The notes under the pieces are model-generated. The model searched no databases. It was not told where the DNA came from and was given only the letters and a program-made list of their open reading frames with translations. This document shows, piece by piece, positions 21,852 to 50,782 of a stretch of DNA of 64,000 bases. This DNA comes from Bacillota bacterium (lineage in GTDB: Bacteria; Bacillota; Bacilli; Alicyclobacillales; SLC66), in assembly GCA_021820975.1 (NCBI GenBank), contig JAKADA010000002.1, positions 62,001 through 126,000 on the forward strand. The letters run 5' to 3'. Each line of letters opens with the position of its first letter. Positions within the stretch are counted from its first letter, which is position 1. Position numbers and translations under genes: made by a program.

Positions 21852-22730
21852 TCAACGAATTTCTGCGTGCATGAAATTGTAAAATTGTTTTGGGGTCATT
21901 TCGTACTGATCCTTAAATGCACGGAAAAAATGAGAGTAAGTATTGAATCCACATTGTGCGGATACATCGCTAATTGGCATGTTCTCTAAAATGAGTTGCT
22001 TGGATAATACCAGTCGTTTTTGCATGATGTATTGATGAATTGTTGTTCCTGTCTGTCGCTTAAATTCGCGCATTAAGTAAAACTTACTCATGTAGAAATG
22101 GGTTGCTATCCCATCTAACGTAAGTTCTTGAGATAGATTTTCTGAAATGAAAGCGGTAATGGGTTCTAAAAAATCATTCACTAAAATAGCATCGTTGAGA
22201 TCTTCATTTTTTCCAAGAAGGGCATAACGATTCAGCAATATCATGAGTCGTTGCACATACGAATGGCTTAAAAGTTTACTGCCAAACGCTTCTTCTTTAC
22301 TTGTGATTAGGAGTTGGAGCAGTTCGGATTTTATGAGCTGAAAATGATCCGGACTAAGCCGTAAGAGATTGGTATGCGTCAATAATGTGGTATTGAAACA
22401 TTGTTCTAAATCTGTCGTAGTGTCTCCTAAAGTTTTTAAAAATTGCCGATCAATCCATAGAACCATGCGTTCGTATGCTTGTGTATCCGCAGAAATAACG
22501 GCTTGGTGCAATTCGTTAGGTGCAATAAAAAGAATGTCATGTGGCTTAAGTACGTAGGATTTTCCCTCTACAAAATAGGTTACTCTTCCTGAAAGAAATA
22601 AATACACCTCATAAAAATCATGATGATGCAATTGAACATCATGCAATTTCCGATCCAAATAATGAAAAACTTCATACTCTGTTCGAATCATATGCTGCCT
22701 AGATTGAAAGTCTTGCGTAGAAATCTTCAT
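21852..22730 (-). CDS. AraC-family regulator, probable controller of the glucuronide operon
   Basis: A 292-residue protein. An N-terminal cupin-like sensing domain carries a His-rich strand (HHHDFYEVYLFLSG). A C-terminal pair of helix-turn-helix motifs lies at about 200-290: LDGIATHFYMSKFYLMREFK, then VSAQCGFNTYSHFFRAFK. This is the AraC/XylS arrangement of sugar-responsive activators. ATG 22730 is six bases after GAGGTG; the in-frame GTG at 22739 is part of that binding site. It is divergent from uxaC, so it very likely senses an uronate or glucuronide and activates the operon. The ligand is inferred from position only. Confidence 0.88.
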   Translation of the reverse strand: MKISTQDFQSRQHMIRTEYEVFHYLDRKLHDVQLHHHDFYEVYLFLSGRVTYFVEGKSYVLKPHDILFIAPNELHQAVISADTQAYERMVLWIDRQFLKTLGDTTTDLEQCFNTTLLTHTNLLRLSPDHFQLIKSELLQLLITSKEEAFGSKLLSHSYVQRLMILLNRYALLGKNEDLNDAILVNDFLEPITAFISENLSQELTLDGIATHFYMSKFYLMREFKRQTGTTIHQYIMQKRLVLSKQLILENMPISDVSAQCGFNTYSHFFRAFKDQYEMTPKQFYNFMHAEIR

Positions 22731-22786
22731 GATAATCACCTCAAAAAATGAAAATCACAACTGGATACACTCACTTTACAACTTTA

Positions 22787-22851
22787 TGTGCAATTTTTGC
22801 AAGTATTTAAGCACAAATTTGCATTTTAATCGCGTAAATAGTAAGTATACT
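22787..22851 (+). promoter_or_regulatory. Operator-like repeats and -10 box of the glucuronide operon
   Basis: TGTGCAATTTTTGCA (22787-22801) and GCACAAATTTGCA (22811-22823) are related elements in opposite orientation, separated by a short A/T spacer. They could be AraC-family half-sites. TATACT at 22846-22851 is a good -10 box; the -35 is weak, as expected for an activator-dependent promoter. Confidence 0.5.
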
Positions 22852-22887
22852 AAGAGTCATAGCAAGTTGAGGAGGTGGACACTCTCT

Positions 22888-24291
22888 GTGGTGAAAGCGT
22901 TTAGTGGTCCAGAATATTTATTGAAAACGAACAGGGCTAAGGAATTATACGAAAAATTTGCTTCTACGTTGCCTATTTATGATTATCATGGCCATTTAAA
23001 TGCACGGGAAATTGCAGAGAATAAATCATTTACTGATCTAGGCGAATTGTGGATGGCTGGTGATCATTATAAATGGAGGTTGATGCGTGCAGCCGGTCTT
23101 CCTGAAGAACTCATTACGGGACAGATAACCACCTACAAGGAGAAATTTATGGCTTTTGCACAAGTACTTCCTTATTTCGTTGGGAATCCCGTTTATCACT
23201 GGGCTCACTTGGAATTGCGACAGTACTTTGCTATTGATAAACCACTTAGTGCAAAAACGGCCGATGAAATTTATGATGAAACGCTACAACAAATTCAAAA
23301 AGGTGGATTTCGAGCGCGAGATTTGATGGCAAAGTCTAATGTGGAAACTATCGCAACGACGAACGATCCGATTGATGATTTGTATTTTCATCGGCAACTA
23401 CACCATGCAACTGACCTACAGATATATGTTGTTCCTACTTTTCGACCGGATGCTGTCTTGGTAATTGCGTCTGATAGCTTTTCAACTTATCTTCAACAAC
23501 TGGCAGAAGTATCGGGTTCAAACATGCAAACATTGGATGATTTGCTTGATACGTTACGTCAACGAATGGACTATTTTGCAACGATGGGATGTTGTAGTGC
23601 TGATCATTCGGTGAGTACGTTTCCTACGGTCAAGGGCACATATGCGCAAGCAAAACACATTTTTGCCAAAAGATTAACTGGTCAGTCATTGCAATTGGAA
23701 GATATTGAAAGATATCAATATTATTTGTTGTTTTTCTTGGCTTCTGAGTACGCAACACGGGGTTGGGTAATGCAACTGCATCTTTCAGCACTTCGCAACG
23801 CGAATTCTCGGCTCTTTGATCAACTTGGTGCTGATTGCGGTGTGGATTCTATTGGTGAAGCGGTCTCTATACGAGCTTTACAACAATTTTTTGATGATTT
23901 AGAGATTATAGATGCTGTACCGAAAGTTATTCTTTACACGATGAACCCAACGGCGTATTACATGATGGCAACTATGGCGGGCAATTTTCAGCGAGGAAGC
24001 AAAGGGAAGATCCAAGTAGGACCTGCTTGGTGGATGTTAGACCATAGAGATGGCATTGTAGAACAATTACGATTGATCAGCAATACAGGAGCATTGGGGT
24101 TATTTATCGGTATGACGACGGATTCTCGAAGTTTTCTATCGTTTTCCCGTCATGACTATTTTCGCCGGATTGTTTGTTCACTGATTGGCCAATGGATCGA
24201 GGATGGAGAAGTACCGGATGACAATGAGACATTAGGTCCCTTACTGGAAGGTGTTTTTATTCAAAACGCGAGAAATTATTTTACAAATTAA
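22888..24291 (+). CDS. uxaC: Glucuronate/galacturonate isomerase
   Basis: Converts D-glucuronate to D-fructuronate, the first step of the uronate pathway. The metal-binding motif is [11 protein letters not shown] (H34, H36) and the family segments [13 protein letters not shown] and [13 protein letters not shown] are present. The 467-residue length matches UxaC (about 470). The frame is open back to 22729, but GGAGGTGG at 22871-22878 marks the GTG pair at 22888/22891 as the start. It is the first gene of a seven-gene operon, with the next gene 8 bp downstream. Confidence 0.95.
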
Positions 24292-24299
24292 GGTGGCTT

Positions 24300-25364
24300 A
24301 TGACGACGATGCAGATGACCTTTCGGTGGTATGGAGAAACGGATCCCGTGACGCTATCGCATATTAAACAGATTCCAGGTATGCAAGGTGTCGTGTCGGC
24401 CATATACGATGTACCGGTAGGCGAAGTGTGGCCACGAGAAAAAATTACTGAGCTTAAGCAAAAGATCAATGAAGCTGGTTTGACTTTTGAAGTTGTAGAG
24501 AGTGTTCCTGTACATGAGAATATCAAACTGGGTGGGAGCGACGCACCGCGTTTGATTGAGAACTATTGCGAAAATGTGCGTCGTTTAGGTGAAGCGGGTG
24601 TAAAAGTCATTTGCTATAACTTTATGCCTGTTTTTGATTGGCTTCGTACGCAACTTTCCTACGAATTACCCGATGGTTCTTTTGCTCTTTCCTATTTTAA
24701 TGAAGATTTACTACAACGTAATCCTTTACAAAGTGAATTAAGCCTTCCCGGGTGGGATGAAAGTTACACCAAAGATCAACTCCGTGATCTACTTTCGCAA
24801 TATGCGGATGTGAATGAGGAAAAGTTGTGGAGCAATTTACAGGATTTTTTACATGAAGTTATCCCTGTGGCAAAAAGTGCTGGGGTTAAGATGGCTATTC
24901 ATCCGGATGATCCGCCGTGGAGTGTATTTGGCTTACCAAGAATCATCACTAATGCAGAAAATATTGATCGATTTTTGCGCATGGTTGATGATCCGGCCAA
25001 TGGTTTAACATTTTGCACAGGATCTTTAGGTGCCAGTGCTCAAAATGATCTTCCAGCGATGATTCGGCGTTTTGGCGGCGAGGGACGAATTCATTTTGCT
25101 CATTTACGAAACATTTTGCGCATCGGTGAGAAACAATTTATCGAAAGCTCTCATCGTACGACGGACGGATCGCTAGACATGTATGAAATTGTAAAAAGTT
25201 TAGTGGATTGTGGATTTGATGGGTATATTCGCCCGGATCACGGTCGTATGATCTGGGGGGAACAAGGCAGGTTTGGTTATGGACTCTACGATAGAGCACT
25301 TGGTGCCACGTATCTCAATGGCCTTTGGGAAGCTATTCAAAAAGAAAGAGGGAAAACGGTATGA
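24300..25364 (+). CDS. uxuA: D-mannonate dehydratase
   Basis: Dehydrates D-mannonate to 2-keto-3-deoxygluconate. The 354 residues have a TIM-barrel layout and the family signatures [13 protein letters not shown] (near 105-117), [10 protein letters not shown] (near 198-207) and the C-terminal [11 protein letters not shown]. The length is typical of UxuA. Several ATGs are clustered (24300, 24309, 24315) after AAGGTGG; the exact start is uncertain. It overlaps the next gene by 4 bp (ATGA), so translation is coupled. Confidence 0.95.
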
Positions 25365-26212
25365 CACTACCATTTGGTGTGGAATTACAAGGTAAAGTTG
25401 CTGTATTAACAGGAGCAGGTGGGGTTATTGGCTCACATTTTGCTCATGTGTTAAGTCAAAGTGGTGCCACGGTCGTGGTGACCGATTTGAAAGAAGAGGC
25501 TGCTAAAGCTGTGGCTGATAAGGTGGTGGAACAAGGTGGAAAAGCCTTGGCACTTGCCGTCAATGTATTGGATAAAGATAGTCTTACCATAGCATTAGAT
25601 AAAGTCTTATCGAGCTACGGAGCATGCGATATCTTGATCAATGGCGCAGGCGGGAATCACCCTCGAGCAACAACAACGAAGGAAACTTTCGCTGTAGGTG
25701 ATGAAAAACAAAACGATCTATTGACCTTTTTTGATCTTGATCCAAGTGGTATCAAATTTGTGTTTGACCTGAATTTCCTTGGCACATTGTTGCCGGTGCA
25801 AGTTTTTGCTCCTGTAATGGTACAAAGAGAAGGCGCGACAATCATCAATATATCATCGATGAACGCTTTTCGACCACTTACGAAAATTCCAGCTTATAGC
25901 GCCGCCAAAGCAGCAGTGTCCAACTTTACGCAATGGCTTGCTGTCCACTTTGCCCCGGTTGGTATTCGTGTGAATGCCATAGCCCCTGGATTTTTTGTTA
26001 CGAACCAAAACCAGGCCTTGCTTTTTGATGAAAACGGCAATCCAACAGATCGATCAAGCAAAATTTTGTCGCATACACCGATGCATCGATTTGGTGAGTT
26101 GGATGATCTCACGGGGACGTTACTGTGGCTTGTCTCTTCAAAGGCATCCGGATTTGTTAATGGCATTGTTGTGCCAGTAGATGGCGGATTTTCTGCCTAT
26201 TCGGGAGTATAA
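25361..26212 (+). CDS. uxuB: Fructuronate reductase (D-mannonate oxidoreductase), SDR type
   Basis: A short-chain dehydrogenase of 283 residues that, by context, reduces D-fructuronate to D-mannonate with NAD(P)H. It has the coenzyme motif [11 protein letters not shown], the NAG segment NGAGG, catalytic Ser (ISSMNAF) and YSAAKAAV (Tyr-x3-Lys). Its length and operon position match the Bacillus YjmF/UxuB SDR rather than the long-chain E. coli UxuB. It starts at ATG 25361, overlapping the uxuA stop, with AAAGAGGG upstream. The family call is certain; the substrate is inferred from the operon. Confidence 0.88.
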
Positions 26213-26216
26213 GAGA

Positions 26217-26852
26217 ATGCAAAAGGAATTTATAATCCAACGCATCAAAGAAACTGGACTGGTTGCCGTCGTACGTGCATCTGATCCTGAGCAAGCCATC
26301 AGGATTACCGAAGCCTGTCTAGAGGGTGGTCTTATTGCCATTGAACTGACGTTTACCGTTCCGTTTGCTCATCAAGTTATTGAATCGTTAGCTAGGCGAT
26401 ACAATCCCGACCAAATTGCTCTTGGTGCAGGTACGGTGCTCGATGCGCAGACGGCACGAATCGCAATCTTGTCTGGTGCTACGTACATTGTCAGTCCCAG
26501 CTTTAGCTTAGATACGATGAAATTGTGCAACCGCTATCGAGTACCGATGATGCCTGGTATTGTGACACCAGCCCAAGCTATCGAAGCTATGGAAGCTGGA
26601 GCGGATATCTTAAAGGCGTTTCCTGGTGAATTGTTTGGCCCAAAACTTATCCGTGCTTTGCGAGGTCCAATACCCCAAGCTCAGATTATGCCGACGGGTG
26701 GTGTTGATATCAGTAATGTCAAACAGTGGATTGAAGCAGGTGCTGTAGCTGTGGGAGCAGGTAGTGCGCTAACGAAAGGTACGCATGAACAAATCGTCTC
26801 AGCGACACGTGCATTTCTATTAGCGATTGCAACGGCTAGAAGCGCAAACTGA
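26217..26852 (+). CDS. kdgA: 2-dehydro-3-deoxy-phosphogluconate (KDPG) aldolase
   Basis: Cleaves KDPG to pyruvate and glyceraldehyde 3-phosphate, the last step of uronate catabolism. It is a 211-residue class I aldolase with VAVVRASDPEQA at the N terminus, the catalytic Glu region (AIELTFTVP), Schiff-base Lys in ADILKAFPGE and the phosphate-binding MPTGGVD. ATG 26217 follows GGGAG by nine bases. It lies 4 bp after uxuB, and kdgK follows after 25 bp. Confidence 0.93.
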   Translation: MQKEFIIQRIKETGLVAVVRASDPEQAIRITEACLEGGLIAIELTFTVPFAHQVIESLARRYNPDQIALGAGTVLDAQTARIAILSGATYIVSPSFSLDTMKLCNRYRVPMMPGIVTPAQAIEAMEAGADILKAFPGELFGPKLIRALRGPIPQAQIMPTGGVDISNVKQWIEAGAVAVGAGSALTKGTHEQIVSATRAFLLAIATARSAN

Positions 26853-26877
26853 TGTTGTTGGAAGAGGGAACGATAGG

Positions 26878-27954
26878 ATGTCAATGATGAGAGATGTACG
26901 GCAAGAAAATTACGCGTTTGATTGCGTATCGCTTGGTGAAGTTATGCTTCGATTTGACCCGGGTGACGCGCGAATTCGAACGGCACGTGAGTTTCGTGTT
27001 TACGAGGGAGGTGGTGAGTACAACGTCACACGGGGGCTTCGGAAATGTTTTCAGCAACGTACCGCCGTTGTAACTTCACTTGTGGACAATGAGGTAGGCC
27101 ATCTCATCGAAGATCTCATGATGCAAGGTGGTGTGGATACTTCGTTCATCGTGTGGGTACCGGACGAAGGTTTTGAAAAACATGTTCGAAACGGTCTGAA
27201 TTTCGTCGAACGGGGTTTTGGCATTCGCCGAGGTACAAGTGTTTCGGATCGGGGCAATTCAGCAGCAAGTCAACTGAAACCTGGCGACATTGACTGGGAC
27301 TCTATATTTGGGAAATTGAAAACGAGATGGTTTCATACTTCAGGGATTTTCACTTCACTATCTGAGACTACAGGGGCGTTGGTACTGGAGGCCGTACAAG
27401 CAGCTAAGCGTCATGATGTTATTGTTTCATTTGATGTGAATTATCGACCATCTCTATGGAATCGTGTTGGAGATCGACAGCATTTCCTTAAGCTACAAGA
27501 GCAGATTGTTAGCTATGTGGATGTTTTTATTGGCTTGGGACTTGCTATTGAAAAAGATCAAAAAGTTTTTCAAAGTCTGGATGAAGACGTATACAGAAAA
27601 CGTATGTCAGATGTTGTTGAACAATATCCCAATGTAAAAGTTGTTTCTACAACAGTTCGAAAAGTGCTTACGTCCAATCAGCATGAATGGTCGGCTATGG
27701 GCTTGGTCAATGGACAATTCTATGAATCAATGAAATTTACCAAGTTACCTATTTTCGATCGCGTTGGTGGTGGAGATGGTTTTGCTTCCGGACTCATCTA
27801 TGGACTTCAAACGTCAGATGATTTTCATGTCGCATTAAATTATGGCGTTATTCATGGAGCTCTTACGATGAGCACGCCAGGTGATAATTCGATGGTTAGT
27901 TTTAGGGACGTGTTAGCCATTTTGCAGGGCGAAGCGGCAACTATAATTCGATGA
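26878..27954 (+). CDS. kdgK: 2-keto-3-deoxygluconate kinase (PfkB family)
   Basis: Phosphorylates KDG to KDPG. The PfkB/ribokinase fold is seen as the N-terminal SLGEVMLRFDPG, the substrate-site GGGEYNVTRGL and the C-terminal GGGDGFASG, which carries the catalytic Asp. At 358 residues it is slightly longer than E. coli KdgK. The ATG at 26878 lies about eight bases after GAGGGAA; the frame is open further back into kdgA, but without a better signal. Its place between kdgA and the permease supports the assignment. Confidence 0.92.
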   Translation: MSMMRDVRQENYAFDCVSLGEVMLRFDPGDARIRTAREFRVYEGGGEYNVTRGLRKCFQQRTAVVTSLVDNEVGHLIEDLMMQGGVDTSFIVWVPDEGFEKHVRNGLNFVERGFGIRRGTSVSDRGNSAASQLKPGDIDWDSIFGKLKTRWFHTSGIFTSLSETTGALVLEAVQAAKRHDVIVSFDVNYRPSLWNRVGDRQHFLKLQEQIVSYVDVFIGLGLAIEKDQKVFQSLDEDVYRKRMSDVVEQYPNVKVVSTTVRKVLTSNQHEWSAMGLVNGQFYESMKFTKLPIFDRVGGGDGFASGLIYGLQTSDDFHVALNYGVIHGALTMSTPGDNSMVSFRDVLAILQGEAATIIR

Positions 27955-27989
27955 CGTTTAGTTCAATTTGACAAGGTGGAGCGTGTTAT

Positions 27990-29312
27990 GTGATGAGCAA
28001 CCAAGATTTAGCGAAAGACATACTCAAATTCGTTGGCGGAAATGAAAACGTAACCAGTGTCGTGAGTTGTGTCACACAATTGCGATTTCAGTTGCGAGAT
28101 CATCAACAAGCAGATAAGGCCGAACTTGAAAAACTACCTGGTGTATTGATGGCATATGATGCAGGAGAAAAATTCCGTATCGTATTGGGTATAGAAAAGG
28201 TAGCTGATGTTTACCAGGAAATTGTGAAGAGTACGAAATTGAAGAAAAAACAAACTCAGGTTCAACGAGTTTTTGATTTCATTTCTCGTAGCTTGTCACC
28301 TGTGATCACAGTATTCGCTGGTGCTGGCATGATCAAAGCACTCTTGGCAATCCTGACTATGCTTCATTGGTTATCTCCACAAAGCGGAACGTATTTCATT
28401 CTTGCTGCAGCTGGGAATTCTGTATTTTATTTTTTACCGATTATGTTAGGCATAACTTGCTCAATGGCGCTAGGGGCTAATCCTTATATCGGTGGGGCTA
28501 TAGGGGCAGCGCTTTTAGAACCGAATTTTACAGGGTTAATGCAACATGGTTCAGCAACATCGTTTTTAGGTATTCCTGTTTTATTAATGAGTTATTCTTC
28601 AACGATTTTTCCCATCTTTATAGCCATTCCAATTTACGCTGTATTTGAGAAATTTCTACGAAAAATAATTTTTAAGGATATACAACTGTTTATGGTTTCT
28701 ATGTTGTCCCTAATCATTATTGTACCCTTGACGGCAATGGTATTTGGACCATTTGGTATTTATGTAGGCCATCTTATCAGTGTCGTGGTGCTCTTCCTAT
28801 TTAGTAAGAGTGGTTTTCTAGCAGGAGCGGTTTTAGGTGCAAGCTGGACTTTCCTAACAATTGTCGGACTTCATTGGGCTCTGATACCTATTGTTATCAA
28901 TGATCTTGCGCATGGAGGTGATCCATTAATCGCGGCTGCCGCAGCGGGAGTGTTTGCACAAATGGGGATGGCACTCGGTGTTTTCTTGAAAACAAAAGAT
29001 AAAAATTTGAAATCCATTGCAGGCGCAGGGTTACTTCCAGCTATCTTTTCTGGTGAAACAAGTCCAATTTTATACGGGGTTTTCCTTCGCTTTCGACGTA
29101 CGTTTCTTTATGTGGCCATCGCCGGGGCCGTTGGTGGAGCGATTTCTGGTGGCGCTGGCGTAAAATCGCATGCTATGGTATTTCCGAGTTTTTTGTCTAT
29201 GCCAGTCTTTGCACCTTTAGGGCTATATATTATTGGTATGCTAGTTGCTTTTGTCGGTGCGGCGGTTCTTACGATGCTGTTTGGATATGAAAACAAGAAT
29301 GAGACTTTGTAA
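27990..29312 (+). CDS. PTS-type permease, EIIB-EIIC fusion (beta-glucoside order), probable glucuronide transporter
   Basis: A 440-residue membrane protein. The N-terminal EIIB domain (about 1-85) has the phosphorylatable Cys27 in SVVSCVTQLRF. The EIIC domain has about ten helices from residue 100 on. There is no EIIA domain, so EIIA must come from elsewhere. Where family members have G-I-T-E-P before helix-rich C-terminal segments, this protein reads G355-E-T-S-P359, so the conserved Glu is displaced. It sits between kdgK and beta-glucuronidase, so it should import beta-glucuronides. Such substrates carry a carboxylate at C6 and cannot be phosphorylated there, which makes its mechanism uncertain. 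The start may be GTG 27990 or ATG 27993. Confidence 0.82.
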   Translation: MMSNQDLAKDILKFVGGNENVTSVVSCVTQLRFQLRDHQQADKAELEKLPGVLMAYDAGEKFRIVLGIEKVADVYQEIVKSTKLKKKQTQVQRVFDFISRSLSPVITVFAGAGMIKALLAILTMLHWLSPQSGTYFILAAAGNSVFYFLPIMLGITCSMALGANPYIGGAIGAALLEPNFTGLMQHGSATSFLGIPVLLMSYSSTIFPIFIAIPIYAVFEKFLRKIIFKDIQLFMVSMLSLIIIVPLTAMVFGPFGIYVGHLISVVVLFLFSKSGFLAGAVLGASWTFLTIVGLHWALIPIVINDLAHGGDPLIAAAAAGVFAQMGMALGVFLKTKDKNLKSIAGAGLLPAIFSGETSPILYGVFLRFRRTFLYVAIAGAVGGAISGGAGVKSHAMVFPSFLSMPVFAPLGLYIIGMLVAFVGAAVLTMLFGYENKNETL

Positions 29313-29337
29313 TTCATAAAAAGAGGAGGAATTTTTA

Positions 29338-31134
29338 GTGTTATTTCCAATAATGACTTCTACTCGCGAATTGATTTCACTCAATGGAATTTGGAACTTT
29401 CAACTCGATCACGGTACGGGATTTGTCGATAGTTGGCATGAATCAGGATTGACGAATGCTATAGCTATGCCAGTACCTTCTTCGTATAACGATATTTATG
29501 AGACCAGTACAATACGTGATCATGTAGGATGGGTGTGGTATGAAAGAGATGTAGTGATTTGTAAAGAGTTTTTAGCGAAGAGAATGGTCATTCGCTTTGG
29601 TTCGGTAACACACGAGGCTAAGATCTATGTTAATGGTGTGCTCGTGAAAGAACACCGAGGTGGATTTACACCCATAGAAGTGGAACTCAACGGTCATGTT
29701 CATGAAGGGAAAAATCGTCTGACCGTAGCCGTCAACAATATTTTGGATTATAGTACGCTTCCTGTTGGTACGTATAAAGAGGAAGAAATCGATGGCTTAG
29801 GGAAAGTCAAAACGAATGCGCCAATGTTCGACTTTTTTAATTATGCAGGCATTCAACGTCCAGTGTATTTGTGGATCATGTCAAACACGTACGTGAAAGA
29901 CATCACCATCATTCCATCAATCGATGGTGTAAATGGAAGAGTTTCTTATACGGTGACATCTGTCGGCGATGCTGACATCAAGATTTCAGTCATGGATGCT
30001 CAAGGTGTTCAGGTGGCAAAGGGCGAATCTGCGACAGGTGAAGTGATTTTGGCTGGTGTGCATTTGTGGCAGCCGTTACAGTCGTATCTGTATAACTTTG
30101 TTGTTGAACTTTATCAAGATGGGCAAATGATTGATCAGTACGAGGAACCATTTGGTGTACGTACTGTCGAAGTTTCAAATGGACAATTTTTGATAAATGG
30201 TAAACCGTTTTATTTCAAGGGATTTGGAAAGCACGAAGATTCCCCACTACACGGACGTGGTTTCGATGACGTCGTTAATGTGAAGGATTTTAGTCTTATG
30301 AAATGGATTGGGGCTAATTCATTTCGGACATCACACTACCCGTACTCTGAGGAGATCATGCGTTTAGCTGATCGCGAAGGTATGGTCGTCATTGACGAGG
30401 TACCCGCTGTTGGCTTACATCTTAATTTTGGAAGCATGGTGTTTGGTGATGGACAAAAGCACAATACTTGGGAGGAATTGCGCACTAAAGAGGCACATCA
30501 ACAAGTGATTCAAGAGTTACTGGAAAGAGATAAAAATCATGCTTGTGTTGTCATGTGGTCTATCGCAAATGAACCTGCTTCTGAAGAAGAAGGTGCCTAT
30601 GAATATTTTAAACCACTGGTTGAATTGGCGAAAAATCTCGATGCACAACATCGCCCTGTGACCATTGTAACGCATATGTTTGCCACGGCCGAGCGTTGTA
30701 AAGTAGCGGATCTTATTGATGTGCTAGCGCTTAATTTGTATTACGGATGGTATGAGTACGGTGGCAAACTTGAAATTGCAAAGGCACGTTTACGTGAAGC
30801 TTTAACTGCATGGACCAAGCGTATGCCTAATAAGCCTATGATGTTTACAGAGTTTGGTGCTGATACAATAGCTGGATTTCACGATGCGACAGAAGTGATG
30901 TTCACTGAAGAATATCAAGTAGCATACTTTAAAGCGAATCATGCCGTGATGGATGAATTTAAGACTCTTGTTGGCGAACAGGTATGGAATTTTGCCGATT
31001 TTCAAACGAGTCAAGGTGTAATGCGAGTACAAGGAAACAAAAAAGGCATCTTTACAAGAGACCGAAAACCGAAGCTCGCGGCACATTATTTACAAAAACG
31101 GTGGCATGAAATTCCTGATTTTGATTTTAAGTAA
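29338..31134 (+). CDS. uidA: Beta-glucuronidase (GH2)
   Basis: Hydrolyses beta-D-glucuronides to glucuronate plus aglycone in the cytoplasm; no signal peptide is seen. The three GH2 domains are in order: sugar-binding jelly roll, immunoglobulin-like domain, TIM barrel. The acid/base is E412 ([11 protein letters not shown]) and the nucleophile E505 (MFTEFGADT). The N567-x-K569 motif ([14 protein letters not shown]) binds the substrate carboxylate and separates glucuronidases from galactosidases. The start is GTG about seven bases after AGAGGAGGAA. It is the last gene of the operon, closed by a terminator. The 598-residue length matches E. coli UidA. Confidence 0.96.
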
Positions 31135-33775: not shown

Positions 33776-33849
33776 GAATACACGAAAAAATTTATTAATT
33801 TGTGATATAGAAACGCTATGAATGGGAATATTAGGGAATAGCACTTATC

Positions 33850-34069
33850 AGAGAGCTGCGGTATGGTGCAACGCAGTAAGTTGAATTCCTGAAACTCACC
33901 CTGGAGCGGCTAGGCGGAACTTAAGTATGCTTAGACGATCGACCCTCGTTATTGGGTCACGCAGGTTGTTCTGCGGCAGAGGTGGGTCCGGGTTTACGGG
34001 TCAACAAGAGTGGTAACGCGTTCGGCGCAGGTCGATCGTCCCTTGAGGGATGATTGGCCTGTTTTTTTT
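33850..34069 (+). ncRNA. T-box leader, leucine type, upstream of leuA
   Basis: A tRNA-sensing transcription attenuator. AGAGAGCTGCGG marks the base of stem I (from 33850). The T-box core AAGAGTGGTAACGCG is at 34006-34020; its TGGT can pair with the ACCA end of uncharged tRNA. A terminator with arms 34030-34042 and 34047-34059 (G-T pairs allowed) is followed by GCC-type spacer and eight T at 34062-34069. The best specifier candidate is CTC (33895-33897) followed by A, which reads leucine and fits the downstream gene. The specifier is inferred because I did not fold the RNA. Uncharged tRNA-Leu should switch leuA on. Confidence 0.88.
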
Positions 34070-45786: not shown

Positions 45787-45825
45787 CGTTGCCTGTGACA
45801 GCAAAGAAGATTGCCACAGGCAACG
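45787..45825. repeat. Inverted repeat at the left edge of the decayed cluster
   Basis: CGTTGCCTGTG / CACAGGCAACG, 11 bp perfect (45787-45797 with 45815-45825), 17-nt loop, no T tract. It may be a worn terminator after osmC. Confidence 0.5.
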
Positions 45826-45912
45826 AACGGGTACTTAGGAGATGATGCTAGCGATTTTGATAGTAATCATTTTATGAAAGCGCTTGCTAAGGCGGGAGGG
45901 GTAGGGAGTATT

Positions 45913-46478
45913 TTGTTAAAAGAGTACCGGATTGAACGTGTTCTAAATAATAATGTCTTAATCGTTCATGATGAAGGTGAAATAGAAAAGATCTTGGTTG
46001 GTAGAGGTATCGGCTTTGCGGTTAAACCTGGCAATTATATTGACAGTAAGGATATGCGAATTGAGAAACGATTTACCCTTGTATTAGACGAGAACAGAAA
46101 TCATTTTCAGCACATATTCATTCTGCTACGCATGCTAAAGGATTGTCTGAGACCGTACGAATTACTGATGCCATTACAATGGCTGTTAAGGCGATCGAGA
46201 GAGCCATGGGAACCGAACTTCCTAAACACCAATTAAATTACGCTCGAATGGTGGCTCATTTGCGGTATGCTATCCAGCGTGTTTCAAATGGTCAACCAAT
46301 TGATAACCCTTTGACAGATACAATTATAGAAAAACTCCCTCAAAGTTATGAAGTTGCTATGCGAGCTTCTCAAGAGATAAGTATGAGGATAAAAAAGTCT
46401 GTTCCCGTGGAGGAAATTTCTTTTCTAGCCATGCACATTGAGCGACTTAAGATTGCTATGCAACGAACTGAGGAATGA
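45913..46478 (+). pseudogene. glcT: Broken GlcT-type PTS antiterminator (CAT domain plus PRD2)
   Basis: The first part encodes a complete CAT RNA-binding domain (YRIERVLNNNVLIVHD to KRFTLVLDENRN). It then joins directly to the end of PRD1 (HIHSATHAKGLSET) in another frame and to a full PRD2 (VAHLRYAIQRV to FLAMHIERLKIA, both regulatory His present). Intact GlcT/LicT proteins are about 280 residues with two PRDs of about 100 each. Nearly all of PRD1 is missing, and the junction is frameshifted near 46110. A TTG at 45913 after GGGAG is the likely original start. A truncated CAT-only peptide might still be made; CAT domains alone can bind RNA constitutively. Confidence 0.85.
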
Positions 46479-46542: not shown

Positions 46543-46600
46543 AGCGTGTAACTGCTGATTCGAGGCAGGCATGAGCCGAAAGGTTTATGCCTGCCTTTTT
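46543..46600 (+). promoter_or_regulatory. RAT antiterminator element overlapping a terminator (GlcT-type)
   Basis: GTGTAACTGCTGATTCG followed by GGCAGGCATGAG (46546-46575) resembles the RNA antiterminator target of GlcT. It overlaps the left arm of a terminator, AGGCAGGCAT / ATGCCTGCCT (46563-46572 with 46587-46596) plus five T. This is the layout upstream of ptsG in Bacillus, and it survives although the antiterminator gene and its target are broken. Confidence 0.75.
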
Positions 46601-46652
46601 GGTCGTTTTAAGTTAACCGCTTACAAATTTGAGTGTCTAAAGGAGGATTTTT

Positions 46653-47579
46653 ATGCAAGCCAAGAATCGGAACCTAATGCAAATTATGCTCCTGTTGGTT
46701 GGGGTGTTTTTGGTTGGAGCCATTCTGTATTGCCGTCGGCATTGCAAAGGAAAACCAAGGTGCATCTGCATTGGCCGCATTTTTGAGTTATGAAGTGATT
46801 ATTCAAGGTGCAACCGCAATTTCATCAAAAATTGATACTGGTGATAAAAGTCCCTTCTTGCTCGTTGCAGGCCTTTTGCTTCGATTGGGGCAACCAGACA
46901 CATTAAATATTCCTTTCATGGCGGCTGCAGGTGGTGCTGAATTTAATTTTCTTCCGATTCTTTCATTTGGCTCACAGGCAATCAACCCAGCAAACAATCT
47001 TGGCTATTTAGGAGCTATTGTTGGGGGGTTATTAACGGGGTGGTTGTTTAACTCTTTTAGTAAGATAAGGATGAAATCGTTTGATTTCATGGGCGGTGCT
47101 AGAGGCATAGCTGTACTCTTAATTCTCTTGTTGTCTGTTATTCTCTCTCTGCTTTTCGGTGTCATTTGGCCGTTTGTTCAAGACGGATTTAATTCCTTGG
47201 GTATCTGGCTAGGAGCGACTGGTGCCATCGGAGCAGGACTTTATGGCGTCTTTAACCGTTTATTGATTCCATTTGGTTTGTTTACGGAAATTATCATGGT
47301 GTAACAGGTGACTTAAATCGATTCTTTGCAGGTGATCCCACTGCTGGCGGATATATAGCAGGATTTTTCCCGATCATGATGTTTGGTCTCCCTGGAGCTG
47401 CACTAGCTATGATTCTTGCCGCAAAACCAGAAAGGCGCAAGGCGGTTGCTGGAGTTTTGGGGAGTGCTGCCTTTACGGCGTTTCTGACTGGTGTCACGGA
47501 ACCCCTAGAGTTTGCTTTTATGTTTGTTGCACCCGTTCTATTTGTTGTTCATGCACTATTAACTGGTATTTCCATATGT
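46653..47579 (+). pseudogene. Broken PTS glucose/N-acetylglucosamine EIIC gene with displaced blocks
   Basis: AGGAGG precedes ATG 46653, but the frame ends within 50 codons. In the next frame, IAVGIAKENQGASALAAFLS comes before AGLLLRLGQPDTLNIPFMAA, the reverse of the usual order in ptsG/nagP-type EIIC. Normal order then resumes (NLGYLGAIVGGLLTG to YGVFNRLLIPFG) to a stop at 47304. After another frameshift the gene continues from GVTGDLNRFFAGDPT through GVTEPLEFAFMFVAPVL to HALLTGIS. The EIIC end and any EIIB domain are missing. This cannot make a working permease. Specificity for glucose or GlcNAc cannot be settled, though the nag genes favour GlcNAc. Confidence 0.85.
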
Positions 47580-47729
47580 AAAGGTGATAAGGAAGTAGAT
47601 ATGAAAAGTATCCTAGGTATTCTTTCATTATCAGTGGATTTTGGCGATCTGGTTATGATAAAAGCGATTGGTGCAGATGAAGAGCAAGCAATGACAAACT
47701 TGATACGATTTTTTAATGAATTATCCTGA
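47580..47729 (+). pseudogene. ptsH: C-terminal remnant of HPr (ptsH), fused to the EIIC remnant
   Basis: The reading frame leaves EIIC at TGISI and continues GDKEVDMKSILGILSLSV to GADEEQAMTNLIRF, which matches the second half of HPr, including the regulatory Ser46 region (KSIMG in Bacillus). The N-terminal half with the phosphorylatable His15 is gone. The fusion is in frame with the EIIC fragment. No ptsI sequence follows: the EIIA gene starts 60 bp later, although glcT-ptsG-ptsH-ptsI is the usual order. Confidence 0.82.
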
Positions 47730-47788
47730 AGATAGTGGCTCTATCTGATCATATTGGCAAGTTGGCCTCAAGGAAGGGAAGTTCTATC

Positions 47789-48304
47789 ATGCTCGGTAAT
47801 CCATTTAAAAAAATGTTTTATCAAAAATCGTTCGAAGAACACTCGTTAACATTGTTAACTCCACTTAGTGGAAAAATAATTCCAATTACGCAGGTCGATG
47901 ACCCCGTCTTTGCACAGTGCATGGTTGGTGACGGAGTAGCTATATTGCCGAATTCCGATAAAGTCGTATCCCCTGTGTCCGGTACGGTGACGACACTTTT
48001 TCCAACCCTCCATGCAGTCGGCATCACAACGGCTGATGAATTAGAAATTCTTATTCATGTTGGACTTGATACTGTGGAACTTAAGGGTCGGGGATTTACA
48101 CAATTGGTATGTCAGGGGCAAGTGGTTACTGCGGGGACACCTTTGATCAAGTTAGAATTGGATATTTTGAAAAAAACAGCAAGATCACTTCAAACTCCCG
48201 TTATTATCACGAATAGGCAAAAAGTTAAAAAGTTAGAAAAGACGAGGGCTGAGGAAATTCGTTACGGAGATTGGATTATGAAGGTTACCCTTGAAGAACA
48301 GTGA
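47789..48304 (+). CDS. crr: PTS EIIA component, glucose (Crr) type
   Basis: A 171-residue single-domain EIIA(Glc). The phosphorylatable His90 is in LEILIHVGLDTVEL and the supporting His75 in LHAVGI; both are present. The C terminus carries an extra basic stretch of about 25 residues after the usual end. ATG 47789 is about eight bases after GGAAGGGAAG; GTG 47735 is further back without a binding site. It reads as intact amid broken PTS genes. It could serve as the missing EIIA for the EIIBC permease of the glucuronide operon if HPr and EI are encoded elsewhere. Confidence 0.87.
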   Translation: MLGNPFKKMFYQKSFEEHSLTLLTPLSGKIIPITQVDDPVFAQCMVGDGVAILPNSDKVVSPVSGTVTTLFPTLHAVGITTADELEILIHVGLDTVELKGRGFTQLVCQGQVVTAGTPLIKLELDILKKTARSLQTPVIITNRQKVKKLEKTRAEEIRYGDWIMKVTLEEQ

Positions 48305-48313
48305 GGAGTTGAG

Positions 48314-49522
48314 ATGGTGAGTAGCGACAGTTCATCGTTATTGTTGTATAATGCGCGGATTCTGACGTCAAAACAGGTAATTGATGGAGGGTGGTTGCGT
48401 ATTGAACAGCAAACTATTATGGAATTGGGTTATGGTGATCCACCACAAGATCTGCTACACAGTGTGTCAATGATGTCGATCAATGTAGAGGGACATTGGC
48501 TTGCACCGGGATTCATTGATATGCATGTGCATGGTGCTGATGGTGCTGATGTGATGGATGGGACTGTGGAGGCACTTGTAACCATTGGTCAATTTCATGC
48601 ACGTCACGGTACGACAGCATGGCTTCCAACTACACTGACAGCGCCCTTGACAGCTTTACAGAAAAGTGTATCAGCAGTTGCAACAATGTATCAAGAACAA
48701 TATCGCTTGTCAGGCGTTCAGGGCGCTGCATCTGTGTTGGGCATACATTTAGAGGGGCCATTCGTTTCATCAGATAAAGCGGGAGCTCAAAATCCGCGCT
48801 ATATCAGTGCGCCCAATCTGATAACTTTGGAGCAATTAGTTAATACGGCACCGAGCATAATCAAAAAAATTACATTAGCACCAGAATTGCCGGGGATTTT
48901 GCCTTTGATTTCATGGTTGACCCAACGTAACGTGATTGTATCACTGGGTCACTCAGATGCTACTTTTCAAGAAACAATGAAGGGTATTGAAGCGGGGGCA
49001 ACCCATGCTACTCATCTGTTTAACGCGATGCGTGGATTACATCACCGCGATGGTGGCGTTGTCGGTGCTTGTCTGTATGCGGATGCTATCGTCTGTGAGC
49101 TGATTGCTGATGGATATCATGTGAGCCCTGAAGTCATGAGTTTGGCATTGCGTTTAAAAGGTCCAGATCATATTGCTCTAATTACAGATGCCATTTCGGC
49201 TACAGGGAAACCGGAGGGAAAGTATCAGTTGGGGGGCCTTGATATTACGGTGATGGGAGACCGATCCGTTTTGGCAGATGGGCACACTCTAGCAGGTAGT
49301 ACGCTTACCATGGATCAGGCGGTACGAACGATGGTTCAACGTGTGGGAGTTTCCTTGCAGGATGCTGTCGTTATGGCGAGTACGACACCAGCAAGGGAAC
49401 TGGGATTGGCAGATCGCAAAGGTAGGTTGGCGATTGGTTTTGATGCCGACTTAGTTGTACTCAACGAATCACTTCAAGTCGCGAAAACTTTTGTGCTTGG
49501 GAGGGAGGCATTTTGTCGGTGA
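48314..49522 (+). CDS. nagA: N-acetylglucosamine-6-phosphate deacetylase
   Basis: Removes acetate from GlcNAc-6-P, giving glucosamine 6-phosphate. It is an amidohydrolase fold of 402 residues. The metal motif HVHGADGADVMD (H-x-H), EGPF with the metal Glu, LGHSDAT, THLFNAM and the catalytic Asp in LITDAIS are all present. GAGGAG precedes the ATG, 10 bp after crr. It overlaps the start of the next gene. It looks functional, but its usual downstream enzyme, NagB, is internally deleted here. Confidence 0.93.
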   Translation: MVSSDSSSLLLYNARILTSKQVIDGGWLRIEQQTIMELGYGDPPQDLLHSVSMMSINVEGHWLAPGFIDMHVHGADGADVMDGTVEALVTIGQFHARHGTTAWLPTTLTAPLTALQKSVSAVATMYQEQYRLSGVQGAASVLGIHLEGPFVSSDKAGAQNPRYISAPNLITLEQLVNTAPSIIKKITLAPELPGILPLISWLTQRNVIVSLGHSDATFQETMKGIEAGATHATHLFNAMRGLHHRDGGVVGACLYADAIVCELIADGYHVSPEVMSLALRLKGPDHIALITDAISATGKPEGKYQLGGLDITVMGDRSVLADGHTLAGSTLTMDQAVRTMVQRVGVSLQDAVVMASTTPARELGLADRKGRLAIGFDADLVVLNESLQVAKTFVLGREAFCR

Positions 49523-50031
49523 CGTTGAGTCATAAACTAAATGTGAGATGGATCGTTAAGGAAGACGACAATACATTGAGCGAACTTGCTGCACAGGTAC
49601 TGATCGATGTACTTATGAATACGGCGCGTCCTGTCATTGGATTTGCAACGGGGGGGACTCCACGTAAATTATACCAACATCTCGTGAGAAAATCACAGGC
49701 AGATCAGCAATTACAACGACATTGGCAGGATATGATCGGATTTAATGAGCCATCTGATAGATTGGAAATTGAGACTCATGTGACGCACTTAAGTGAAGGG
49801 ACAAGGCAGGCGAATGCGCTGTATTTTCAGGACGGTACTGTTCCCTTACAGGCTATAACGATGGGGATGGGAAGCATTTTACACGCTAAAAAAATCATTT
49901 TGCTCGCGTTTGGAAGTGTGAAACGTCAAGCACTATTACGGGCATTTTCGGGAACGATCGACACGAGGTGTCCCGCATCTTTTTTACAGTTGCATAACAA
50001 CATCATAATTTTTACCGATCAAATCTTGTGA
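49513..50031 (+). pseudogene. nagB: Glucosamine-6-phosphate deaminase with in-frame deletion of the active-site middle
   Basis: The open frame is 172 residues, against about 240-265 in NagB. The N-terminal part has FATGGTPRKLYQHL (phosphate loop). After LQRHWQDM at about residue 74 it jumps to IGFNEPSDRLEIETHV and proceeds normally to ITMGMGSIL and the C terminus. The missing block holds the catalytic Asp of the DEY motif (Asp72 in E. coli), the segment up to GHI (Asp141, His143), and about 70 residues. The retained NEP carries Glu148. Deaminase activity is very unlikely. The frame is uninterrupted, so a stable shortened protein may still be made. TTG start after GGGAGGGAGG. Confidence 0.82.
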
Positions 50032-50782
50032 CGTACGAAGTAAGTTTTATTCACGACATTTTTACGATTTATGAGTTGCGTGAGACAACTACGCAATCAC
50101 ATTTTAGAATTTGTCCAGAACGTGGTGGTATGGTAATTTCTTATGCTCCATATGGAAAGGAAATTCTATACTTCGACGAAGTCACATTTCGTGATGTATT
50201 AGTTAACGTGCGCGGTGGTATTCCGGTTCTTTGGCCTATTTGCGGTAAAATGCCAGATGGGTATTCTGACCTTATTGATAGGGAATTTGTGATGCAAAAT
50301 CACGGGCTCGTTCGTCAACTACCCTGGGAAGTTGTCGACATAGATACAGTAAATAGGGCTGCTATTACGTTAAAAGTATCCAGCAATAAAACGACCTTGC
50401 TCTTCTTTCCATTTGCGTTTGAGCTACTATTTACGTATGAATTGAAACAAGGTAGACTGAGCATTTTGCAAACGTACACTAACCTATCAGACGATCCTAT
50501 GCCCATGTATGCAGGTCTTCATCCGTACTTTTTAGCTGCTGAGAAAAAGTTATTGTTACAGATGGATACATGTCAATATCTTGACTTGCAAGACGGTTTG
50601 CATAAGAATTTTTGTGGTGCTTTGGATATGAGTGAACGGTGAGTGAAAAACAGTTCGTATGCGTCGAACCATGGATGGCTGTACCAAATTCTCTACAAGT
50701 ACAACAGGATATTCATAGGATCCCTGCGCGGCAATCCTTATCTATTTTTGTGACCTTTTTTGCAAAACATGCTAAGGAGTAG
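50028..50782 (+). pseudogene. Broken aldose 1-epimerase-like gene
   Basis: The first frame (to 50642) encodes the N-terminal two thirds of a galactose-mutarotase-fold protein (RICPERGGMVISY, GGIPVLWPICG, YAGLHPYFLA). It stops after LDMSER. From 50639 in another frame the typical C-terminal end continues (QFVCVEPWMAVPNSL to the stop at 50782). A stretch between the two parts is missing, about 40-60 residues by comparison with a 290-residue family. The start overlaps the nagB stop by 4 bp. It resembles glucose-6-phosphate 1-epimerase or YihR-type proteins; the substrate is not assignable. Confidence 0.78.

Follow-up and report, generated by a model that had tools for sequence, protein, structure and literature searches.

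A nagB remnant in a decaying GlcNAc-PTS/nag operon and a possible dependence on imported amino sugar in a member of the Alicyclobacillales

The frame at 49513-50031 of the window (the whole 64,000-nucleotide stretch of DNA that was analyzed) is very probably a nagB pseudogene, best explained by ordinary decay. It lies in a glcT - tandem nagE - ptsH - crr/IIA - nagA - nagB - galM gene order, an operon that is decaying by deletion. A broken nagB frame alone is ordinary; the interest lies in its apparent joint loss with glmS. With confidence that stops just short of an even balance, we propose that this bacterium, which has an intact GlmM, lost GlmS (together with its ribozyme) and NagB, that imported amino sugar supplies its wall, that NagA passed from a catabolic to an anabolic role, and that, with NagB gone, GlcN-6-P escapes catabolic consumption.

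The nagB remnant

The initial annotation had described an open NagB-like frame that lacks its catalytic centre. The frame is real: its 172 codons match both Pfam Glucosamine_iso, at profile positions 165-218 of 225 only (31 bits; cut-off 27), and NCBIfam nagB TIGR00502, at 113.2 bits, below the curated family score of 236.9. The start codon overlaps the nagA stop codon, and GGGAGGGAGG just 5' of it is a good ribosome-binding site. Still present are the ATGGTP loop, the FNEP glutamate, and the TRQAN and FGSVK segments; for the loop, the TRQAN arginine, and the FGSVK lysine, we assume the roles known from work on E. coli NagB. The NLDEY aspartate and the GIGxNGH segment are what we take to be the catalytic residues of NagB, with the roles of the FNEP glutamate, the ATGxTP loop, and the Lys of AFGxxK presumed likewise. 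NLDEY occurs in all 10 aligned family relatives and is missing from the remnant. The GIGxNGH segment is missing too, the 10 residues before IGFNEP being gone. The loss of the catalytic centre was thus borne out by tblastn with the intact NagB of the family relative G007 (255 aa), against which both DEY and GxGxxGH are absent. The parts of the frame are as follows:

49513-50031, + strand: nagB remnant, 172 codons, with a TTG start at 49513 and a stop codon that ends at 50031
49687-49701, + strand: putative deletion 1 junction zone, with an in-frame net loss of 62 codons, DEY among them; the tblastn blocks break off at 49686 and restart at 49702 (also placement test)
49702-49734, + strand: putative island DQQLQRHWQDM between the deletions (tblastn, placement test)
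49734-49735, + strand: putative junction of deletion 2, 10 codons with QILGIGxNGH gone in frame (tblastn)

G007 NagB residues 24-49 match window 49609-49686 (weak alone, E 0.023), and residues 117-233 match 49702-50019 (E 9e-25). Within the second block, another 10 residues, QILGIGLNGH, are missing directly before IGFNEP. Measured against G007, the net loss is 72 codons. This agrees with the annotated removal of some 70 residues with the frame kept; the single jump from RHWQDM to IGFNEP, on the other hand, fits less well than a pair of in-frame losses, net 62 and 10 codons, that leave RHWQDM in a surviving island. We consider two deletions the better reading of the sequence because of where the 14 residues SQADQQLQRHWQDM are placed by a column profile built from 30 of 31 relatives. 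They score 13.6 at ARYDEVVRKHPLDM, just upstream of the ILGIG strand, where the next best place scores 2.2; readings that make them continuous with the N-terminal part or with IGFNEP score -12.0 and -16.0, respectively. Among 5000 shuffled segments, 1.3% reach the 13.6 maximum. Contrary to the two-deletion reading, a shallow MAFFT alignment of four sequences gave one single gap. A repeat search around nagB found nothing marking the deletion junctions.

Decay of the surrounding operon

Only IIA and NagA are intact in the operon. The glcT, IIC/IIB, HPr, and galM genes are broken, some of them out of frame: the frame changes within glcT, IIC, and galM, IIB is gone, and HPr is truncated. Besides the nagB remnant, the operon comprises:

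45811-46478, + strand: glcT-type antiterminator remnant, with CAT_RBD and PRD2 in different frames (1 and 3) and the middle missing
46571-47576, + strand: tandem nagE-type IIC remnants, with a 28-residue gap, a 7-residue gap plus frameshift, and IIB lost (tblastn with the G007 IICB and the adjoining IIC fragment)
47568-47729, + strand: C-terminal HPr remnant, continuous and in frame with the IIC remnant (PF00381 positions 32-80)
47735-48304, + strand: PTS IIA (Glc type), intact (PF00358 2-126 of 127; TIGR01995 470-617 of 618)
48314-49522, + strand: nagA, intact, 402 aa (TIGR00221, 347.5 bits; cut-off 225.65)
50028-50773, + strand: galM (aldose 1-epimerase) remnant, with 34 residues missing and a frame change

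The GlcT profile matches the antiterminator remnant at positions 1-62 (the RNA-binding domain) and 169-272 of 272 (the last PRD). By tblastn, the IIC remnant runs directly into HPr position 34, with the IIB domain absent; the end of the IIC remnant and the C-terminal half of HPr share one frame at 47376-47729, a chance fusion by deletion. The G007 galM matches with residues 2-207 and then, in another frame, with residues 242-287. NagA departs from two of 67 conserved columns, which is the median of 35 relatives. In G007 (L097, G007:C22), galM and ptsH share a PTS cluster with IICB and IIA, and a second IIC fragment lies upstream; the tandem IIC is therefore common to G007 and this genome. A plasmid search gave partial matches only, to 11 records; the eight listed share 69-77% identity with the query over 2-6% of its length.

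Absence of GlmS and of a replacement NagB

No other PF01182 or TIGR00502 match was found by profile search of the assembly, nor was a NagB found in the six loci examined for it. Of the 61 genomes searched, 45 have a nagB match, and in 38 it lies above the family cut-off; this genome falls below. GlmS is the SIS enzyme that makes GlcN-6-P, and the assembly has no SIS-domain match anywhere, a result that would also cover SIS-type deaminases.

GlmS scores above cut-off in 17 of 18 family genomes, this one being the exception, and the glmS ribozyme is likewise missing from this assembly only (17/18). Across the order, 57 of 59 genomes have GlmS, and the second genome without it is 62% complete; when restricted to genomes with completeness of 90% or more and contamination of 5% or less, the count is 44 of 45, again with this genome as the exception. 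Its glmM is intact (G000:C22:5017-6330; 597 bits, cut-off 447.55) and lies inside contig C22. In all 17 family relatives, glmS adjoins glmM (in G016, it is split across two contig ends). Here, a membrane-protein gene lies directly behind glmM (L158 4137-6360, G000:C22), with no glmS or ribozyme between them. An assembly gap at this empty site is unlikely because the ATG of the next gene lies about 40 bases past the glmM stop, glmS and the ribozyme are absent between the two, and the site is inside a contig. A longer stretch was compared in 12 of the 17 relatives. Three of them (G004, G011, and G015) have a membrane protein behind glmS that is 63-73% identical to the gene directly following glmM here; in G011, this is followed by an FTR1-like gene of matching relative orientation, the gene that lies further on in this genome. 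The other nine gave no match to that membrane-protein gene behind glmS, with some stretches (G003, G005) ending less than 1 kb past glmS. The absence of GlmS and the empty site lie beyond the sequence as first read and could not have been seen in the initial annotation.

Under the proposal, glmS ancestrally lay behind glmM and was lost from there. With GlmS and NagB both absent, nothing was found that links Fru-6-P with GlcN-6-P, while GlmM is kept, and GlcN-6-P is therefore still needed. NagA would have been retained because, with glmS lost, no route to GlcN-6-P was found other than deacetylation of GlcNAc-6-P. Unless the missing 8% of the genome has a GlmS copy, it is likely that GlcN-6-P cannot be made from Fru-6-P and that imported amino sugar is needed, with NagA as the likely entry point. 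Given an assembly that is 92.3% complete and a single genome of its genus, we judge GlmS loss with amino-sugar auxotrophy, as read from sequence, to be about evenly balanced. If true, a requirement for GlcNAc or GlcN is expected, the organism is predicted to depend on neighbors or detritus for its wall sugar, and the case would illustrate the conversion of a catabolic deacetylase gene into a biosynthetic one.

The strongest alternative is that nagB decayed without wider meaning, glmS having moved to the unassembled part of the genome and nothing depending on NagA. We find this somewhat doubtful but far from implausible: by the completeness estimate, about 8% of the genome is missing, and GlmS is nearly universal in the order. 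However, a gene that adjoins glmM in 17 of 17 family relatives must then have moved and also been missed, its former site is empty inside a contig, and no ribozyme was found anywhere in the assembly. A relocated glmS is compatible with the pseudogene reading of nagB and competes only with the GlmS part of the proposal.

PTS genes and the retained IIA

Elsewhere in the window, there is a likely user of the retained IIA, judging from domain content:

27990-29312, + strand: beta-glucoside-type PTS IIBC, intact, without an IIA domain (TIGR01995 2-453 of 618)

This IIBC gives the only PTS_EIIB match of the assembly. It covers positions 2-453, and the retained IIA covers 470-617, of the same 618-position IIABC profile. 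We infer that IIA was retained because an intact IIBC lacking this domain remains. The IIBC gene belongs to an apparent glucuronate/glucuronide-use cluster at 22729-31134, whose genes, named by eye, include uronate isomerase, mannonate dehydratase, KDG kinase and aldolase, and beta-glucuronidase. Further along, a T-box leader (RF00230, 116 bits) at 33809-34046 precedes what looks by eye like a leuA-like gene at 34054.

A mannose-family PTS (IIA, IIB, IIC, and IID) is intact on contig C9 with ptsI alongside, and an HPr match lies just before ptsI. In other bacteria, GlcNAc and GlcN are among the sugars that members of this family transport. By analogy, and with nagE being broken, the C9 system is a candidate amino-sugar importer.

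Decay, misassembly, or a retained protein

Of the two fates that the initial annotation had offered for the frame, plain decay is the one that the operon favors: the neighboring genes are broken too, and frame retention is within chance. Eight deletions were counted in the operon (one each in glcT, between the two IIC genes, from IIC to HPr, and in galM, and two each inside IIC and in nagB), of which five keep the frame (p = 0.09 by chance). Retention at this level is within chance, and the open nagB frame therefore needs no selection. Two in-frame deletions would have removed the catalytic residues and a core part of the NagB fold, and the frame would have stayed open by chance. Several observations count against a pseudogene, namely, the lack of a stop within the frame, the good ribosome-binding site, and the fact that both deletions are in frame. 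Conserved-column counts do not show decay in the remaining NagB parts: the remnant departs from 16 of 61 columns, about as many as one intact relative of another subtype (16/62), a second such relative having 12/62. One further row of that test, L028, has 39 departures in 56 columns and is probably a paralogue or in the wrong frame. The codon-position GC of the remnant (0.50/0.37/0.44) is only slightly flatter than that of intact genes, and over the aligned part, no relative exceeds 45% identity to it, in a comparison set where the genus is represented by this genome alone.

Misassembly of mixed strains could also produce such deletions, and we regard this as very improbable. There are many deletions within 5 kb, yet residue identity is high (one IIC part is 78% identical to G007), and the assembly is in 84 contigs, with 92.3% completeness and 3.0% contamination. 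Against this, the window has long intact frames over its first 45 kb, IIA and NagA escape the breaks, and the frameshifts and fused genes are expected products of decay.

Structure prediction for the 172-residue product, which the initial annotation had called for, is weak evidence. From the single sequence, it was uninformative (pLDDT 32.4); with a four-row alignment that includes three relatives, the mean rose to 60 in only one of the five models, and this best model (pLDDT 60.4) has block means of 74-81 in residues 11-40 and falls below 50 in residues 79-119. That the shortened NagB was retained to bind sugar phosphates, the other fate suggested initially, or to serve in regulation is highly improbable, since the open frame with its start and ribosome-binding site, the surviving motifs, and the better-modeled residues 11-40 are set against adjoining genes that decay in the same way, in-frame deletions within chance, the loss of the DEY and ILGIG segments, and a poorly modeled stretch at residues 79-119.

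Comparison with known systems

The operon has the same gene content as the GlcNAc PTS/nag operon of Firmicutes, of which G007 has IICB-IIA-galM-ptsH-ptsI together. In contrast, most of its genes are broken here, and HPr lies between IIC and IIA. Like NagB (TIGR00502; 2bkv/2bkx, the closest solved structure by phmmer), the remnant has the ATGGTP part at the N-terminus and, from IGFNEP on, the C-terminal half; unlike NagB, it lacks the DEY and GxGxxGH segments and stays below the family cut-off. In the portions of the open-licence PMC literature available to us, we found no report of such an operon or of a GlmS-less member of the order.

The nearest parallel is Akkermansia muciniphila, which is without GlmS and needs GlcNAc or GalNAc (PMC5902328). 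As here, no GlmS was found, and cell-wall precursors are expected to come from imported amino sugar. Akkermansia has retained an active NagB, an enzyme considered unlikely to aminate Fru-6-P under physiological conditions (PMC5902328), whereas here, NagB is broken too, and the dependence is predicted only. By analogy, this genome may represent a further GlmS-less auxotroph of the Akkermansia type, one step beyond it in that NagB is also broken.
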